A stretch of DNA of 64,000 nt from Bifidobacterium sp. ESL0800. GTDB taxonomy: Bacteria; Actinomycetota; Actinomycetes; Actinomycetales; Bifidobacteriaceae. How positions within the stretch are numbered: position 1 is the first letter of the stretch; every line of letters starts with the position of its first letter. The stretch lies in contig NZ_CP113913.1 in NCBI RefSeq assembly GCF_029395355.1, forward strand, positions 1,550,001-1,614,000, in the 5' to 3' direction. The notes beneath the pieces were generated by a model that had not been told where the DNA came from, searched no databases, and saw only the letters and a program-made list of their open reading frames with translations. Positions 12,432-50,772 of this stretch are shown here, piece after piece. Both the position numbers and the translations under genes were made by a program.

Positions 12432-13520
12432 TCATCGCATGAACCGCACGCCGGCACCAGGCCGATGGACCGCAATCTCGCAGCCGGGCAGGCGGTTGCG
12501 CAGCTCGTCGGCCACGCGCTCGGCGTCGCGGCCGACGGTGAGCACCTTGACGTTCGGGCCGGCATCCATCGTCGACCACGCACCCAAGCCGGCATCGCGA
12601 CGAATCGCAGCGACGGAATTCAGCGCGGCCACGGTCTGCGGCAGCCAATAGAAAACCGAGGGCCGGCTTGCCATCATCGCCGCGTGCATACCAAGCGCGT
12701 TGGCCTCGGTGATCTCGCCCAGGTGCTGCACGTCGCCGCTTGCGATCGCCGACAACGCATCGTCCAGATCCTTGCCGCACGAATCGATCCACGCGTCATA
12801 GAGCGGCGAGGTGGCGATGGTACGTCGCATGGCCTCACGGCTGGAAATCGGCTTTTTGGCGCTGGATATCAGCACGACGATAATAGCCAAGTCCATATCG
12901 CCAGAATCAACGGGTTCGGCGTACGAACTCTCGTCGTCATGCCCGGCATTCCATTTCACCAGACCACCGAAAATCGAGCGACAGGCCGACCCCGAACCGC
13001 GACGGGCCAGACGGGAAAGCTCACGAGGCGTCAGATCAAGTCCGGCCGCCTTTGAAGCCGCTGCCGCGAGCGCCGCAAACGCCGACGCCGAGCTGGCCAG
13101 GCCGGCTCCGAACGGTACGGTGTTGGCGGAAGTCACACGTGCAGGCAGGCCGATACCGGCCTTCTGCCGCACAATGTCAAGGAATTTAGAAACGCGGGTC
13201 AGCGATGAGCCAAGCTGTACTTTGCCATCGATGGTCAGGCAATCAGTAATCGTTTGGCCACCCGGCTGATCATCGGGTTGCGTTCCTGGCCGTCCAAATT
13301 CGACCGTGGTCCACGTGGACAGGCCCTCAAGGGTCAGCGAAAGACTTGAGGCACGGGGAATAATCAGACGTTCGTCGGCCTTACCCCAATATTTGATCAG
13401 CGCGATATTGGCGTTGGCGACGGCAGTGGCCTTTTTCGACGCGGCTTGACTCACCGGCAGTTGCCTATGCGAAACGGAACGCTCCGACTCCTGTTCCTGC
13501 AGTTCCCGCGTTTTCGCCAT
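12432..13520 (-). CDS. mvaD: Diphosphomevalonate decarboxylase
   Basis: 362 residues from ATG 13520; upstream in-frame GTG codons are alternatives because the ribosome site is weak. It converts mevalonate 5-diphosphate to isopentenyl diphosphate using ATP. Family marks: NIALIKYWGKAD, RASSLSLTLEG, the GHMP ATP-loop PFGAGLASSASAFAALA, GSACRSIFGG with the conserved Ser-Gly-Ser-Ala-Cys-Arg, and MDAGPNVKVL near the end. It sits downstream of mevalonate kinase on the same strand but is separated by 521 bp containing a repeat array. Phosphomevalonate kinase, expected between or after them in many bifidobacteria, is not in the window. Confidence 0.93.
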   Translation of the reverse strand: MAKTRELQEQESERSVSHRQLPVSQAASKKATAVANANIALIKYWGKADERLIIPRASSLSLTLEGLSTWTTVEFGRPGTQPDDQPGGQTITDCLTIDGKVQLGSSLTRVSKFLDIVRQKAGIGLPARVTSANTVPFGAGLASSASAFAALAAAASKAAGLDLTPRELSRLARRGSGSACRSIFGGLVKWNAGHDDESSYAEPVDSGDMDLAIIVVLISSAKKPISSREAMRRTIATSPLYDAWIDSCGKDLDDALSAIASGDVQHLGEITEANALGMHAAMMASRPSVFYWLPQTVAALNSVAAIRRDAGLGAWSTMDAGPNVKVLTVGRDAERVADELRNRLPGCEIAVHRPGAGVRFMR

Positions 13521-13749
13521 ATCCGTTACACCGATCTTCACAATCTCAAAGTCTATCCCGCCGCAGCCAATCAAGGCATACAAATGCGGGACTATCTACC
13601 AAACCAGCAGAATTCGCGTCCGTATGCGACGAACGGGACACAGAGCCTTCCACTTACTCCTGCCTAATACGTCTGCCACATCGCGCACACCGCAAGCGCG
13701 TTGCACGAAATCCAAGCCCATCAGAACATCACCTGCACATTTCTGAAAC

Positions 13750-13936
13750 GTGATTTTCTCTGCGTGTCCGCCGAAAATACAACGGAAATCACAGAAACCG
13801 ACCCAAAAACGTGATTTCGTCTGCATGCCCACCGAAGAAATCACAGAAACCAGCTCCAAAACGTGATTTTCTCTGCATGATGGCAAAAAGTACATCGATA
13901 ATCACGAAAAATCGTCGCAAAGTGTGATTTTCTCTG
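13750..13936. repeat. Family-2 GTGATT/AATCAC array, 4 copies, spacing 61-52-61
   Basis: GTGATTTTCTCTGC-type half-sites begin at 13750, 13811, 13863 and 13924, giving steps of 61, 52 and 61 bp. Each interval contains an opposing AATCAC half-site (for example 13838-13846). It lies in the gap between mevalonate kinase (ends 14042) and mvaD (starts 13520). The same family, with the same 61/52 steps, is at 49030-49345. Confidence 0.88.
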
Positions 13937-14041
13937 TATCGATGAAATTACGGCGTAATTACCAATGTCTTTGCTTACCGAGTCAAAATCGGAATATCGT
14001 TGTCGTCCGCCTCTTGGCAGAAACTTCTGCACCACCCACAA

Positions 14042-15328
14042 CTAGGCAAGCGATACGACAGCGGGCCGTGCAGTTGAGTCGGCATCTGCCCCATCATCTG
14101 CCTGCGCCTCCGACAACGAATGGATCCAGACTTCGCGAGCGCCTTCGCGCAGCAATGTCGCTTTGACGGCGTTGGCGGTTTGCTCGTCGGCGGCCAAAGC
14201 AATCAGGCAGCCGCCCAAGCCGCCACCGGTCATTTTCGCACCGCTGGCCCCGGCCGCACGAGCCGCATCGACCAGATGATTGACCAAGGGATGGCTGACG
14301 TTGAGCTCATTGAGCAATCCGTGCGCACGGTTCATGCGCTCGCCCAACAGTGCCACCGTTCCCAGCTCGAGATCGGTTTCGCTCGCACGTGCGAGTTCGC
14401 CAAGCTCATCCATGACGGACTTGACATGCGCGTGATCCCGCTCATCCTCTTGATGGACGTTGCCCACGGCCTCACGCGTGCTCCCGGCGATACCGGAATC
14501 CGCGATCACCAGGTAAGCCGGCATATCGACACGCATTTTCTCGATATCGCCGGATTCAAACGCGACCAGATCACGAGAGCACGTCGTCGCGGCGTCGAGC
14601 CCGGACGGATTGCCGTGCGTAATGATTTCAGCCTCATTGGTCAGCCGCAAGATCTGCTGCTCGCTCGTCTTGACATCACAGGCGTCAAGGATCGCACGAA
14701 TCACGGCGCCCGCGCTGGCGGCCGACGAACCCATGCCACGCCCAGCGGGGAACGAACTGTCCGTGACCACGTTGAAGGCGAGGCCAGGGTAACCGGCGAA
14801 TTGTGTGGCGACCTTCACCGCACGTTCCAAGCCGCCGAAACGGCTTCCTGCATCGGAAAGCGAGCCTTCGTAGTTCAAGGCTTTGAGAGTGCCACAAAGG
14901 GGATTCGGAGAACCGGAAGCGACAGACGGATTCGCAGACGCAGCGTCAACCGCACCTACAGAATGGCGGAAATCACTGATGGCTGTGCGCGAAGATCGTG
15001 CGCCTGCAAGAGACGAATCCGAGGTTTTTGAAGTACCGTAATCCGAAGCAGCGTGATCTGAAGTACCGTGATTTGCCGTACCGTAATCTGCCGTAGCGTG
15101 ATTTGCCGTAGCGTAATCTGCCGTACCGTGATCCGCCGTACCATAATCCGAAACAGCAGTAAAAGTCTCAGCATTATTTTGTGCCGATACCACCGGTGTG
15201 ACCCAAGCGCGCATCTTCAACGAAAGCAGAGGCGCGGCGACGGCGGGATATCCGTAGACCACGGAATGCTCACCCATGAGAATGACCTTCGCCCAGGTCT
15301 CGCCATACCCCATGTGCACCATCAGCAC
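14042..15328 (-). CDS. mvk: Mevalonate kinase with low-complexity insertion
   Basis: 428 residues from GTG 15328 (GAAAGG six nt upstream; ATG 15322 is an alternative). It phosphorylates mevalonate in the ATP-dependent isoprenoid pathway. GHMP kinase signatures: VILMGEHSVVYGYPA at about 15-29, the ATP loop FPAGRGMGSSAASAG, HGNPSGLDAATTC, and the C-terminal GAKMTGGGLGGCL. Residues 61-100 are an insertion of eight 5-residue units of the type DYGTA/DHGTA, followed by a Ser-rich stretch to about 150. The insert separates the first strand region from the ATP loop and is longer than expected for the family (about 310-340 residues usually). Active-site motifs are intact. Confidence 0.93.
   Translation of the reverse strand: MLMVHMGYGETWAKVILMGEHSVVYGYPAVAAPLLSLKMRAWVTPVVSAQNNAETFTAVSDYGTADHGTADYATANHATADYGTANHGTSDHAASDYGTSKTSDSSLAGARSSRTAISDFRHSVGAVDAASANPSVASGSPNPLCGTLKALNYEGSLSDAGSRFGGLERAVKVATQFAGYPGLAFNVVTDSSFPAGRGMGSSAASAGAVIRAILDACDVKTSEQQILRLTNEAEIITHGNPSGLDAATTCSRDLVAFESGDIEKMRVDMPAYLVIADSGIAGSTREAVGNVHQEDERDHAHVKSVMDELGELARASETDLELGTVALLGERMNRAHGLLNELNVSHPLVNHLVDAARAAGASGAKMTGGGLGGCLIALAADEQTANAVKATLLREGAREVWIHSLSEAQADDGADADSTARPAVVSLA
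15029..15148 (-). repeat. Intragenic 15-bp tandem repeat in mevalonate kinase
   Basis: Eight imperfect copies of a 15-bp unit (consensus on the coding strand GATTACGGTACGGCA) encode residues 61-100 of mevalonate kinase as (D/N)(Y/H)(G/A)(T/A)(A/S). The copy length is a multiple of three, so copy-number change would keep the frame. Confidence 0.92.
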
Positions 15329-47466: not shown

Positions 47467-48867
47467 TCATTGTTCAGTCTCCTTCGCGATTGCCACCGCC
47501 GTCGGCTTGGCAACGACCGACCTGACATTCTCAGAGTTGCCATGCACCTTGGAATAGCTGGGATAACGAACCGCCAGATCCATAAGCGTTCCACCCTTGC
47601 TCGTACTTGCCAAATCGTACGCGCTCTCGCCTTGGTCGGCAAGGTCGACGCCGGCCAGTTCCTGGTCCCCGTCCACCCTCCAGCCGACGGTCTTTTCGAG
47701 CGCGAAAGCGATGACGAACGTGACCACGGCGGAGTACACGACCGCGGCGAGCGCCACTACCACCTGCACCGCAAGCTGACGCCAGCTACCGCCCGCGAAA
47801 AGCCCCGCACCCTGCGCAAAGAAGCCGATGAGGATGGTACCGGCTAAGCCGCCGACGCCGTGTACGCCGACCACATCCAGTGAATCGTCGTAACCGAAAC
47901 GGAACTTGAGCCCGCACGCCAGGCAGGTCAGCACACCGACAATCGCGCCGATCGCCATGGCCCAGAGCGGCGAAACCACATCGGCGGCAGGCGTGATGCC
48001 GACCAAGCCGGCCACCATGCCTGAGGCCGCGCCGACCGCCGTGTAGTGGCCCGTGCGAATCTTCTCGGTAAAGCCCCAGCTCAGCATTGCCGCAGCGGCG
48101 GCCAGCGAGGTACTGACCCACGCATAACCGGCGACGCCGTTGGCCGCGAAGGCCGAACCCGAGTTGAAGCCGAACCAGCCGAACCAGAGCAGGAACGCAC
48201 CGAGCATGACGAAGGGGACGTTATGCGGACGGATCGGGACTTTGCCGAAGTCCTTGCGCTTGCCGATCAGCAGGACGATGACCAGAGCCGCCACGGCCGC
48301 GTTGATGTGGACGACCGTGCCGCCCGCGAAATCGTGGACCGGCGCACCGATGAGCCTGGAGATCAGACCGTCGGGCGAGAGCAGGCCGCCGTTCCAGACC
48401 ATGTGGGCCATGGGCGCGTAGTCCAGCGTCACCCAGATGGCGACGAAAATCATCCACGTGCTGTATTTGATACGTTCCGCAAGCGCCCCGGAAATGAGCG
48501 CGACGGCGATCATGGCGAAGGCGAGCTGGAAGGCGACGTCGATGCTCACCGGGTAGTTGTTGCCATTGGGGGTCAGGCCAGTGGTGGTGAAAACGCCGTC
48601 TTTGCCGGCCTTCATCGTGTCGCCGAGCAGGAAGCCGGTGGACGGTTCGCCGAAGATGCCGCCGATATCCTTGCCGCCCCAAGCGATCGACCAACCCCAC
48701 AAGGCCCAGATGATAGTGCTCACCGCAAGCGCACCCGCCGAGAGCATCAGCATGTTCAGCACGGCCTTGCGGCGCACCATGCCTCCGTAGAAGAACGCCA
48801 CCGCGGGCGTCATCAGAAAGACGAGCGACGCCGCGATCAACATCCATGCGGCATTTCCTGTATCCAT
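47467..48867 (-). CDS. amt: Ammonium transporter
   Basis: 466 residues from ATG 48867 with GAGGGGA upstream; longer in-frame starts are unlikely. Eleven-span Amt/Mep fold: AWMLIAASLVFLMTPAVAFFYGGMVRRK, DFAGGTVVHINAAVAALV (pore His), GVHGVGGLAGT (second pore His). The C-terminal cytoplasmic tail (about 70 residues) is longer and Ser/Lys-rich. It probably forms an operon with the PII gene 73 bp downstream; PII normally blocks the pore when nitrogen is ample. Confidence 0.96.
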   Translation of the reverse strand: MDTGNAAWMLIAASLVFLMTPAVAFFYGGMVRRKAVLNMLMLSAGALAVSTIIWALWGWSIAWGGKDIGGIFGEPSTGFLLGDTMKAGKDGVFTTTGLTPNGNNYPVSIDVAFQLAFAMIAVALISGALAERIKYSTWMIFVAIWVTLDYAPMAHMVWNGGLLSPDGLISRLIGAPVHDFAGGTVVHINAAVAALVIVLLIGKRKDFGKVPIRPHNVPFVMLGAFLLWFGWFGFNSGSAFAANGVAGYAWVSTSLAAAAAMLSWGFTEKIRTGHYTAVGAASGMVAGLVGITPAADVVSPLWAMAIGAIVGVLTCLACGLKFRFGYDDSLDVVGVHGVGGLAGTILIGFFAQGAGLFAGGSWRQLAVQVVVALAAVVYSAVVTFVIAFALEKTVGWRVDGDQELAGVDLADQGESAYDLASTSKGGTLMDLAVRYPSYSKVHGNSENVRSVVAKPTAVAIAKETEQ

Positions 48868-49029
48868 GTCGTGTCCCCTCACCAACCCCAAACGCGTACC
48901 TGGTCTGATGCGCGAATCGTATGGAGACATACAACACGGTCAACGTAAGGGGAAGTTTGACACGAGATTACGGCGATGTAAAGCACGCATCATCGCCGAA
49001 ACATGATGGTTACGTATCAGACAGGATTG
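48868..49029 (-). promoter_or_regulatory. Probable amt promoter region
   Basis: On the minus strand TTGACC (about 48938-48943) and TACGAT (about 48916-48921) lie 16 bp apart. Further up, GTAAC-n6-GTTTC (48998-49013) partly resembles an actinobacterial GlnR box. Both are weak. Confidence 0.35.
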
Positions 49030-49345
49030 CCGGGTTCCATGCAGAGACAATCACAAAATTGCGCCTCAAACTGTGATTATCTCCGCACATTCGCATCGGA
49101 TACAGAGCTAATCACAGAATAAACCCCAATACTGTGATTAGCTCTGCATATCCATGCCCGATACAGAGTTAATCACACAATGAGGCCCAAAACTGTGATT
49201 AACCCAGCACACCCACAACACAAATCACACAACCACGCCCCAAACCGTGATTAACTCTGCACACCCACAAAACAAATCACACAACCACGCCCAAAACCGT
49301 GATTAACTCCGCACAATCCGTTCCGTACAGAGAAAATCACACTAT
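49030..49345. repeat. Family-2 GTGATTA/AATCACA array, 5 copies, spacing 61-61-52-52
   Basis: GTGATTA half-sites begin at 49073, 49134, 49195, 49247 and 49299. Opposed AATCACA half-sites lie in each interval; in the best unit TACAGAGCTAATCACAG and CTGTGATTAGCTCTGCA form a 17-nt pairing arm with a 14-nt loop (about 49101-49148). The 52-bp units lack 9 bp between CTCTGCA and AATCACA. It lies between the ftsY stop and the amt start. Confidence 0.9.
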
Positions 49346-49434: not shown

Positions 49435-50772
49435 TCAGGCGAGAATGCCGTCGACGAAGCCTTCCGGGTCGAAGGGCGCGAGGTCGTCGGGGCCTTCGCC
49501 TAGGCCGACGAGCTTGACCGGAACGCCCAGCTCCTGCTGCACGGAGATGACGATGCCGCCCTTGGCCGAGCCGTCAAGCTTGGAGAGCACGACGCCGGTG
49601 ATGCCGATGGCCTGCGCGAACACCTTGGCCTGGGCCATGCCGTTCTGGCCGGTGACCGCGTCGAGCACGAGCAACACCTCGCTCACGGGCAGGTTCTTTT
49701 CGGTCACGCGGCGAATCTTGCCCAGCTCGTCCATCAGGTTGGCCTTGTTCTGCAGACGGCCGGCGGTGTCGATGATCAGCACGTCGGTACCGTTCTCCTT
49801 GGCCTGTTTGGAGGCGTCGAAAGCGACCGAGGCTGGATCCCCGCCCTCTTTGGCGCTGCGGACGACGGGCACGCCGACCTTCTGCCCCCAGGTCTCAAGC
49901 TGGTCGGCGGCGGCGGCGCGGAAGGTGTCGGCTGCGGCGAGCATCACGGACTTGCCTTCCGAGACGAACAGGCGCGCGAGCTTGCCGGCGGTTGTGGTCT
50001 TGCCGGTGCCGTTGACGCCGACCATGATGATGACACTCGGCTTCTTGGCGTCGGGCTTGTCGGCCTCGAGCGCGCGGTCGGATTGGGCATTGACCAGGTC
50101 GATCAGCTTGGAACGCAGCGCCTCGCGCACGGCCTTCGGGTCCGAAGTACCGGTGATCCGGGCGTCGTTGCGCAACTCGTCCACCAGCTTCTCGCTGGCG
50201 ACGCTGCCGACATCGGCCAGCAACAGTGTGTCTTCGACGTCCTCCCAATCGGACTCGGAAAGCTGGTCTTTGGCGAGAATATTAAAGAGTACCCGACCGA
50301 ACGGGTTCGACGACTTGCTCAGTTTCTCCTTGAGGCGGACGGCACGTGAGGCTTTGGGCTCAGGAGTCTCGACATCTGGCTTCGCGTCAGTTTCTTTGTT
50401 TTTTCCGTTATGAGAAGATTCGGCACGCGATCCCGGCTTGGTTGCGTTCTTGGTTTGGGGGTTCTGCTCCGACTCGTCCTCGGCGCTTGGCGTTCCGCCC
50501 TCCGGAGATTTATCGGAGCTTTTCTCTTCCTTGGCTTTGCCGAATTTGCCGGCTTTTTCGGTATTCTTAACGGCTTTGCTTGATTCCTTGTTGTCGGCAT
50601 CATCTGACGAGTCGGCTTCCGTGCTTTTTGCATCGGCGGCAACATTGGCGTTCTGCGCATTTGCGCCGTTGTTCTTGTGCGCATGCGCCACCAATGCAGC
50701 CACGGCAATAAGCACGACGGCGACGACAACCAGCGCCGCAACGATAATCATCGGATTGATCATAAGAGTCAT
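49435..50772 (-). CDS. ftsY: Signal recognition particle receptor FtsY
   Basis: 445 residues from ATG 50772. N-terminal membrane span (about 5-30), then an acidic/basic low-complexity A domain to about 145 (DSSDDADNKESSKAVKN). The NG GTPase domain follows: GVNGTGKTTTAGKLA (G1, about 250), DTAGRLQNKANLMDEL (G3), TKLDGSAKGG (here VLSKLDGSAKGG, G4) and GLGEGPDDLAPFDP near the end. It docks ribosome-SRP complexes at the membrane. Confidence 0.96.
   Translation of the reverse strand: MTLMINPMIIVAALVVVAVVLIAVAALVAHAHKNNGANAQNANVAADAKSTEADSSDDADNKESSKAVKNTEKAGKFGKAKEEKSSDKSPEGGTPSAEDESEQNPQTKNATKPGSRAESSHNGKNKETDAKPDVETPEPKASRAVRLKEKLSKSSNPFGRVLFNILAKDQLSESDWEDVEDTLLLADVGSVASEKLVDELRNDARITGTSDPKAVREALRSKLIDLVNAQSDRALEADKPDAKKPSVIIMVGVNGTGKTTTAGKLARLFVSEGKSVMLAAADTFRAAAADQLETWGQKVGVPVVRSAKEGGDPASVAFDASKQAKENGTDVLIIDTAGRLQNKANLMDELGKIRRVTEKNLPVSEVLLVLDAVTGQNGMAQAKVFAQAIGITGVVLSKLDGSAKGGIVISVQQELGVPVKLVGLGEGPDDLAPFDPEGFVDGILA

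Follow-up and report, generated by a model that had tools for sequence, protein, structure and literature searches.

Introduction

In the BIME/REP clusters of enterobacteria, inverted units alternate in intergenic space and are joined by short and long linkers. In the REPIN/RAYT systems, the repeats flank an IS200-type tyrosine (HUH) transposase gene. A single gene is adjoined by its own repeat dialect, the same dialect is scattered intergenically, and several such pairs occur per genome, according to excerpts of PMC3116915. The repeat carries a GTAG or CGTC tag and a short stem-loop, as described in part of PMC3733652. In the AbiE type IV toxin-antitoxin systems, the antitoxin gene is accompanied by an adjacent AbiEii nucleotidyltransferase. 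The operator-binding proteins AbiEi (S. agalactiae abiE) and Rv2827c (M. tuberculosis) bind inverted 23-bp repeats that are separated by 3, 4 or 13 bp, on which they act as autorepressors, and AbiEi bends its promoter, as stated in excerpts of PMC7319586. The target on which the EDxHD homing endonuclease I-Bth0305I forms a dimer is nearly 60 bp long (PMC3943268, in part).

Here we describe two repeat arrays in a 64,000-nt stretch of a Bifidobacterium chromosome (hereafter, the window), the genome-wide family to which they belong, and a gene for a 325-amino-acid (aa) protein that lies outside the window between two arrays of this family. The family shares with AbiEi operators its inverted repeats and its linker lengths (13 and 4 bp are two of the AbiEi/Rv2827c repeat gaps), and modelled residues 2–196 of the protein align with AbiEi at a modest score. 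Unlike those operators, the arrays lie on both sides of the gene as well as at other genome sites, and the protein has a fused nuclease-like domain with no AbiEii toxin adjoining its gene. An adjacent toxin gene, as in the AbiE type IV toxin-antitoxin systems, was not found: the only AbiEii match in the genome (PF08843, E 9.9e-34; Table 1) is far from all four homologs of the gene. As in the REPIN/RAYT systems, the same repeats stand beside a gene and dispersed in intergenic space, each gene has its own adjoining dialect, and there are several pairs per genome. However, no transposase family was found among the Pfam matches of 55 homologs at E 0.01, the consensus TRCAGAGATAATCAC-N18-GTGATTATCTCTGYA contains neither GTAG nor CGTC, and the dyad is long and set in rigid, helically phased arrays, many of whose sites are common to relatives. 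Because two defining traits of the REPIN/RAYT systems are absent, and because the toxin partner is lacking and the arrays are scattered, we place the family in neither class. The C-terminal domain has a modest fold match to the catalytic domain of I-Bth0305I, but the gene here is chromosomal and has an AbiEi-like front half and surrounding repeats. As in BIME/REP, inverted units alternate within intergenic clusters and their linkers are short or long, but no REP signature is present here, and a gene family has flanking dialect arrays. A literature search of titles and abstract openings, with thin coverage of subscription journals, returned no description of the gene-array association, and no paper joining AbiEi with DUF559 was found.

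Results

Two Arrays of the Window and Their Family

As shown in Table 1, array 1 and array 2 lie between genes transcribed from the reverse strand. The initial annotation had read successive steps of 61-52-61 in array 1 and 61-61-52-52 in array 2, and both readings were exact and placed as claimed. TRF detected array 2 with periods of 61 and 52, and array 1 was absent from its output at score 40. In mvk, in-frame 15-bp repeats encode a pentapeptide run, DYGTADHGTADYATANHATADYGTANHGTSDHAASDYGTS, which lies in an apparent insertion relative to the mevalonate kinase family profile.

Table 1. Coordinates of the arrays, their parts and the genes and loci mentioned in the text.
Feature	Position	Strand	Remark
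Window (array 1 and neighbours)			
mvaD, adjoins array 1	12432..13541	-	TIGR01240 E 1.9e-87
Array 1, between mvk and mvaD	13750..13938	.	4 + half-sites, 3 - half-sites
Array 1, GTGATT half-site starts	13750, 13811, 13863, 13924	+	
Array 1, - half-sites	13778-13792, 13830-13844, 13891-13905	-	
Array 1, 13-bp linker, long form	13765..13777	.	43-bp palindrome
Array 1, 4-bp linker, short form	13826..13829	.	34-bp palindrome, 9 bp fewer
Array 1, 13-bp linker, long form	13878..13890	.	
mvk, adjoins array 1	14042..15328	-	TIGR00549 E 1.2e-66
mvk, in-frame 15-bp repeats	15033-15152		
Window (array 2 and neighbours)			
amt, adjoins array 2	47467..48930	-	TIGR00836 E 1.8e-122
Array 2, between ftsY and amt	49040..49340	.	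+ steps 61-61-52-52
Array 2, GTGATT half-site starts	49073, 49134, 49195, 49247, 49299	+	
Array 2, - half-sites	49040-49054, then 49101, 49162, 49214, 49266, 49326-49340	-	
Array 2, 13-bp linkers	49088..49100 and 49149..49161	.	
Array 2, 4-bp linkers	49210..49213 and 49262..49265	.	
Array 2, 12-bp linker	49314..49325	.	42-bp palindrome (three found genome-wide)
ftsY, adjoins array 2	49435..50772	-	TIGR00064 E 2.7e-100
Own genome (G000) and relative (G084)			
Gene for the 325-aa protein	G000:C1:778182-779159		between two family arrays
AbiEii match	G000:C1:268348-268920		
Second family, clusters	G000:C1: 79037-79146, 318330-318439, 1547568-1547677		three of 14; the last just outside the window
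Paralogous gene adjoined by second family	101221-102183		
Locus L237	G084:C1:1497966-1501301		

The repeat unit is the dyad TRCAGAGATAATCAC-N18-GTGATTATCTCTGYA followed by a linker. Two 15-bp arms and an 18-bp spacer make up a dyad of 48 bp, and a linker of 13 or 4 bp brings the pitch to 61 or 52. The spacer is rigid: all 51 exact cases in the own genome (G000) measured 18 bp. Among 57 units numbered from the first A of AATCAC, only A/T occurred at positions 8 and 20 and almost only A/T at positions 9, 10 and 21, and position 6 was R only and position 23 Y only. About 11 bp separate the two A/T stretches of the dyad centre.

Pattern and similarity searches of the 2.25-Mb genome found 24 arrays of this family, including both arrays of the window. 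The half-site GTGATTNNCTCTGC, with at most one mismatch, gave 98 genome matches compared with 2 for the reversed pattern, indicating that the arrays are not due to chance. According to a home-made gene caller, all 24 arrays lie in intergenic gaps, with 9 between convergent, 14 between co-directional and 1 between divergent genes, and their location is mostly at gene 3' ends. A rough hand calculation revealed no enrichment of arrays near the replication origin (dnaA, 1.892 Mb) or the terminus. A second dispersed dyad family, CTGATTTTCNTCGCA, was observed on the same contig in 14 clusters with a pitch of mostly 62, and it adjoins a paralogous gene on both sides (Table 1).

Two Length Forms of the Unit

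We measured the GTGATT..AATCAC distance in 52 exact-anchor cases; it was 43 bp in 40 cases, 34 bp in 7, 42 bp in 3 and 44 bp in 1, the last case being a spurious 22. Units with a mutated anchor, read by eye, added two more of 34 bp and one of 35 bp. The linkers were accordingly 13 bp (40), 4 bp (7, and 2 more with a mutated anchor), 12 bp (3), 14 bp (1) and 5 bp (1, with a mutated anchor), and step variants of 60, 62 and 53 occurred. Thus, when lengths besides 52 and 61 were looked for in the 24 arrays found, the distribution was bimodal with a scatter of ±1 bp rather than a continuous range. The short form was present in 7 arrays. Losses of 5 bp or longer numbered ten in the own genome; nine of these, spread over seven arrays, were exactly 9 bp and one was 8 bp, which supports the earlier proposal that two forms are allowed, as opposed to random decay. 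Against a uniform null of 5–17 bp, the clustering at 9 bp had a probability of about 1e-9 by event and about 1e-7 by array; this null is a rough one, and the arrays have common ancestry.

The 9 bp had also been said to be missing from the same part of the monomer. The losses do fall within one 31-bp region, though seemingly at more than one place in it. By eye, the right arm was readable and the linker went from 13 to 4 bp in L068, L055b and L062, and the inner right arm was degraded in L055a, L060, L066 and L067. Both step patterns of the window recurred at orthologous loci of a relative (G084), where the array 1 pattern was read by eye with one anchor mutated.

Spacing in Helical Turns at Homologous Loci

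Same-strand half-site distances of 40–95 bp were collected around homologs of the 325-aa gene at 80 loci, ten loci with fewer than six half-site matches having been excluded. Among the 501 distances, 170 were at 51–53 bp (from 31 loci) and 271 at 60–64 bp (from 55 loci). The others were at 70–72 (9), 81–82 (8), 40–47 (28) and 83–86 bp (8), with 7 elsewhere (55, 59, 67, 69 and 92), so that 43 distances fell outside the 51–53, 60–64, 70–72 and 81–82 peaks. Spacings of 54–59 bp were nearly absent (3 of the 501). The best period was 10.4 bp over all distances and 10.9 bp on modal values. Since the 70–72 and 81–82 peaks came mainly from L237 (4 of 9 and 6 of 8, respectively) and partly from low-complexity loci, support for the 7- and 8-turn classes is weak.

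At the 77 loci with at least two spacings of 45–90 bp, the commonest spacing was 50–54 bp in 20, 59–65 bp in 52, 69–73 bp in 1, 80–84 bp in 2 and another value in 2; 18 of these loci mixed spacing classes, and 6 contained an off-class spacing. On a protein tree made by a quick method from 55 of the 90 homolog loci described below, 49 of them with a 5- or 6-turn state, these two states changed at least five times. The difference between the two lengths had been described as near one helical turn, and the spacings indeed differ by about one whole turn. The view of one monomer with two fixed forms, on the other hand, survived in part: the two forms hold, but a spacing rule in helical turns fits better. 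In L237, the left array has a pitch of 70–72 and the right array, with the same half-site, 81–82, which adds one turn on one side of the gene.

The Gene Flanked by Arrays and Its Half-Site Dialects

The two family arrays at the 325-aa gene are 1.4 kb apart, one upstream and one downstream. Homologs of this gene were found in 94 of 112 Bifidobacterium genomes. We examined 30 automatically cut loci, one per genome from the best-scoring 30 of the 94 genomes, and dyads were located within 500 bp of the homolog in 27 of them and on both sides in 19. The two 500-bp flanks had dyad densities of 4.6 and 4.4 per kb; the density was 0.25 beyond them and 0.17 in the gene, and base-shuffled upstream flanks gave 0 dyads. 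Among the 15 loci listed, the half-site was identical left and right of a gene and differed between genes.

We then used 90 loci of 51 Bifidobacterium genomes from a larger homolog set, of which 30 were automatic and 60 hand-chosen (L268, L280, L281, L282, L283 and L284 partly because their genomes have arrays). At least two half-site copies on each side were present at 70 of the 90 loci compared with 17 of 59 control regions, and at least eight copies in total at 66 compared with 3. Note that the controls, subjected to the same maximising procedure, were other parts of the loci around arrays or half-site matches rather than a random genome sample, and were not empty, 19 of the 59 reaching six half-site matches with a maximum of 10. 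The association suggests joint function of each gene with its flanking arrays.

The dialect of the flanks was also that of scattered arrays in four gene-array pairs, namely the first and second families of G000 and those of G037 and G010. The second family of G000 gave 41 matches against 0 in the control, and two of its 14 clusters are beside its paralogous gene. The scattered families of G043 and G051 did not match the flanks of the homologs checked, one out of six in G043 and two out of seven in G051. These two dispersed families comprised 110 and 13 pattern matches with listed pitches of 69–72, the pattern maximum being 72. In a test on 50 of the 55 aligned loci, half-site similarity tracked protein identity (Mantel rho 0.229, 0 of 2000 permutations). 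The correlation was 0.165 for the DNA-binding part and 0.179 for the nuclease part of the protein, and it could be explained by linkage alone.

In a search of the phylum for occurrences beyond Bifidobacterium, homologs were present in 43 of 396 genomes, own included. Of 29 non-Bifidobacterium loci (L287–L315), L300, from a genome of another family of the phylum (G483), was the one that clearly had 61–62-bp arrays on both sides. Others had short tandem repeats of 19–31 bp, as in L290, L295, L299 and L304, or nothing clear.

Predicted Structure of the 325-aa Protein

The structure model (pLDDT 88.8, pTM 0.87, 55 sequences) predicts an AbiEi-like DNA-binding module joined to a homing-endonuclease-like domain. 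Residues 201–314 aligned with the I-Bth0305I catalytic domain 3r3p (Z 8.6, rmsd 2.7, 94 residues) and residues 2–196 with the AbiEi antitoxin 6y8q (Z 8.1, rmsd 6.3, 178 residues) when Foldseek candidates were realigned with VIA-align 2, in which a Z of 8–9 is barely above the level common for unmatched models. With Foldseek alone, no match reached E 0.001, and the absence of a tyrosine transposase from the structural match list by itself proves nothing. The Pfam AbiEi_4 score of the protein was just below the cut-off (24.2 of 25). At E 0.01, AbiEi_4 was matched in 13 of the 55 homologs, and AbiEi_4, AbiEi_1 and DUF2483 were the only Pfam matches among them; PADLOC gave weak AbiEi matches in 3 of 3 proteins. 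G203, E204, S205, R234, D236, E250, D252, G253 and K256 were invariant in the 55 homologs, and these residues may form a putative nuclease site.

Relatives with and without the Gene

A profile of the unit was positive in 9 of the 112 Bifidobacterium genomes, own included. Copies were numerous in G083, G084 and G093, and fewer or weaker in five further genomes. In G037, another arm sequence had the same architecture (18-bp spacer, 13-bp linker, pitch 63). The bare architecture pattern matched 15 of the 112 genomes compared with 1 for the reversed control; this pattern was limited to pitches of 46–72, and its 69–72 families may be clipped at the top. For 20 of the 24 arrays, both flanks were matched at array loci fetched from G083, G084 or G093, and the remaining 4 may simply be unfetched in these genomes. 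Recent movement was therefore not seen, and frequent movement of the arrays is disfavoured.

Family arrays were present in G083, but no ortholog of the 325-aa gene was found among four homologs there (at most 48% identical). One of these arrays, gene-less, shares its right-hand neighbour with G000, and on its left side an extra open frame lies between the array and the next shared gene. The spacer was 18 bp in 11 of 17 cases in G083 compared with 100 of 101 in the gene-bearing G000, G084 and G093 (p 2e-5), the G000 spacers having been counted by a slightly different script than those of the other genomes. Compared with G093 alone, whose distance from G000 at the single locus examined is similar to that of G083, the difference was 11 of 17 to 14 of 14 (p 0.02). 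Steps of exactly 61 or 52 were likewise fewer in G083 (p 0.019). Thus spacing is looser in the gene-less genome; note that this is a comparison of one such genome with 17 spacers, that arrays within a genome are not independent, and that one genome is not proof.

Discussion

Given the geometry of the arrays, their association with the gene and the clustering of their pitch, we consider it probable that the arrays are helically phased and serve as putative binding platforms for an AbiEi-like protein that stands alone and has a nuclease-like domain at its C-terminus. The dyad consists of two inverted half-sites around an 18-bp centre, in which two A/T stretches lie about one turn apart, as would be expected for bent DNA and minor-groove reading. 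Linkers of 13 or 4 bp keep neighbouring units near the same helix face (about 6 or 5 turns), and losses that break the phase are mostly not retained. The 325-aa protein presumably binds the arrays, and would do so as a phased assembly in which one turn more or less is tolerated. Each gene usually has its own half-site dialect on both sides, and the dialects of several genes are also scattered genome-wide. A gene with satellite arrays of this kind would follow a REPIN/RAYT-like logic with an unrelated enzyme. The protein may also be a nuclease, and its nuclease-like domain may serve in spreading or mending the arrays, or in nothing, leaving operator and titration functions only. We tentatively propose that this domain may cut at or near the arrays and so spread or repair them, and regard this as possible though not the likelier outcome. 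A broader proposal is a system class of AbiEi/Vsr-like fusion nucleases that would each recognise a phased array of their own, spread, mend or police such arrays along the chromosome and co-diversify with the dialect, as a non-transposase counterpart of REPIN/RAYT; we regard this class as rather unlikely.

The strongest alternative is that the arrays are operators only, the protein being an autorepressor with an idle nuclease-like domain and the scattered arrays titrating the protein or shaping the chromosome. We hold this to be a serious possibility, if a somewhat improbable one. The autorepression by AbiEi and Rv2827c through such repeats (excerpts of PMC7319586) fits it, as do the position of one of the two arrays upstream of the gene and the many scattered array sites common to relatives. 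However, the residues of the putative nuclease site are invariant in 55 homologs, and arrays are found downstream of the gene and far from it, mostly at gene 3' ends.

It is improbable, and already strained by the data, that plain tandem duplication produced one ancestral array with both unit lengths that was then copied. Orthologous arrays do keep their step patterns and many array sites are common to relatives, as copying would leave them, but the short units of different arrays seem to miss different bases, the 5- and 6-turn classes switch at least five times on the protein tree, and the near absence of 54–59-bp spacings (3 of 501) is seen in unrelated dialects.

A further alternative is that the dyads act in transcripts as RNA hairpins, either as terminators or as mRNA stabilisers, with the spacing arising from RNA folding. 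The arms were complementary in 87.8% of cells, covariation between them was weak but slightly above shuffles (24 double-changed cells compared with 16.5), and the position of most arrays at gene 3' ends would suit such a role, as would two weak terminator-like sites in array 2. However, 5 of the 15 dyad pairs departed from standard pairing in 10–14 of the 43 units (model R1 was built from 43 of the 57 units), and in the second pair from outside the sides stay R and Y, yet A is often opposite C. The short units often lack one arm with their length kept, and a pitch in helical turns is not predicted by RNA folding. Intrinsic terminators, sought in arrays 1 and 2 as a GC-rich hairpin followed by a T run, were rejected for these arrays, with 0 sites in array 1 and 2 weak ones in array 2, where 0.6 were expected; an Rfam scan of 7 loci returned no family except one tRNA. 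Despite the slight covariation, the dyad pattern resembles DNA read by a protein more than it does an RNA stem, and we regard RNA hairpins as quite improbable. A TIGR-like guide array, in which linkers and spacers would be guides for an RNA-guided nuclease, is extremely improbable: two variable segments do alternate between the repeats and arrays do lie on both sides of one gene, but no Nop domain was found at E 0.01 in 55 homologs, the spacer is a constrained A/T and G/C sequence rather than a free one, and the arrays are scattered over 24 places.

If the arrays are binding platforms for the AbiEi-like protein, the many gene-dialect pairs would constitute a natural set of matched proteins and DNA sites from which the recognition code of AbiEi-like proteins may be read. 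Shifts of the pitch by whole helical turns would be an evolutionary sign of selection on protein assemblies, not just on single sites. Furthermore, if the nuclease acts on the arrays, this would account for the upkeep of a scattered repeat family with no transposase involved.
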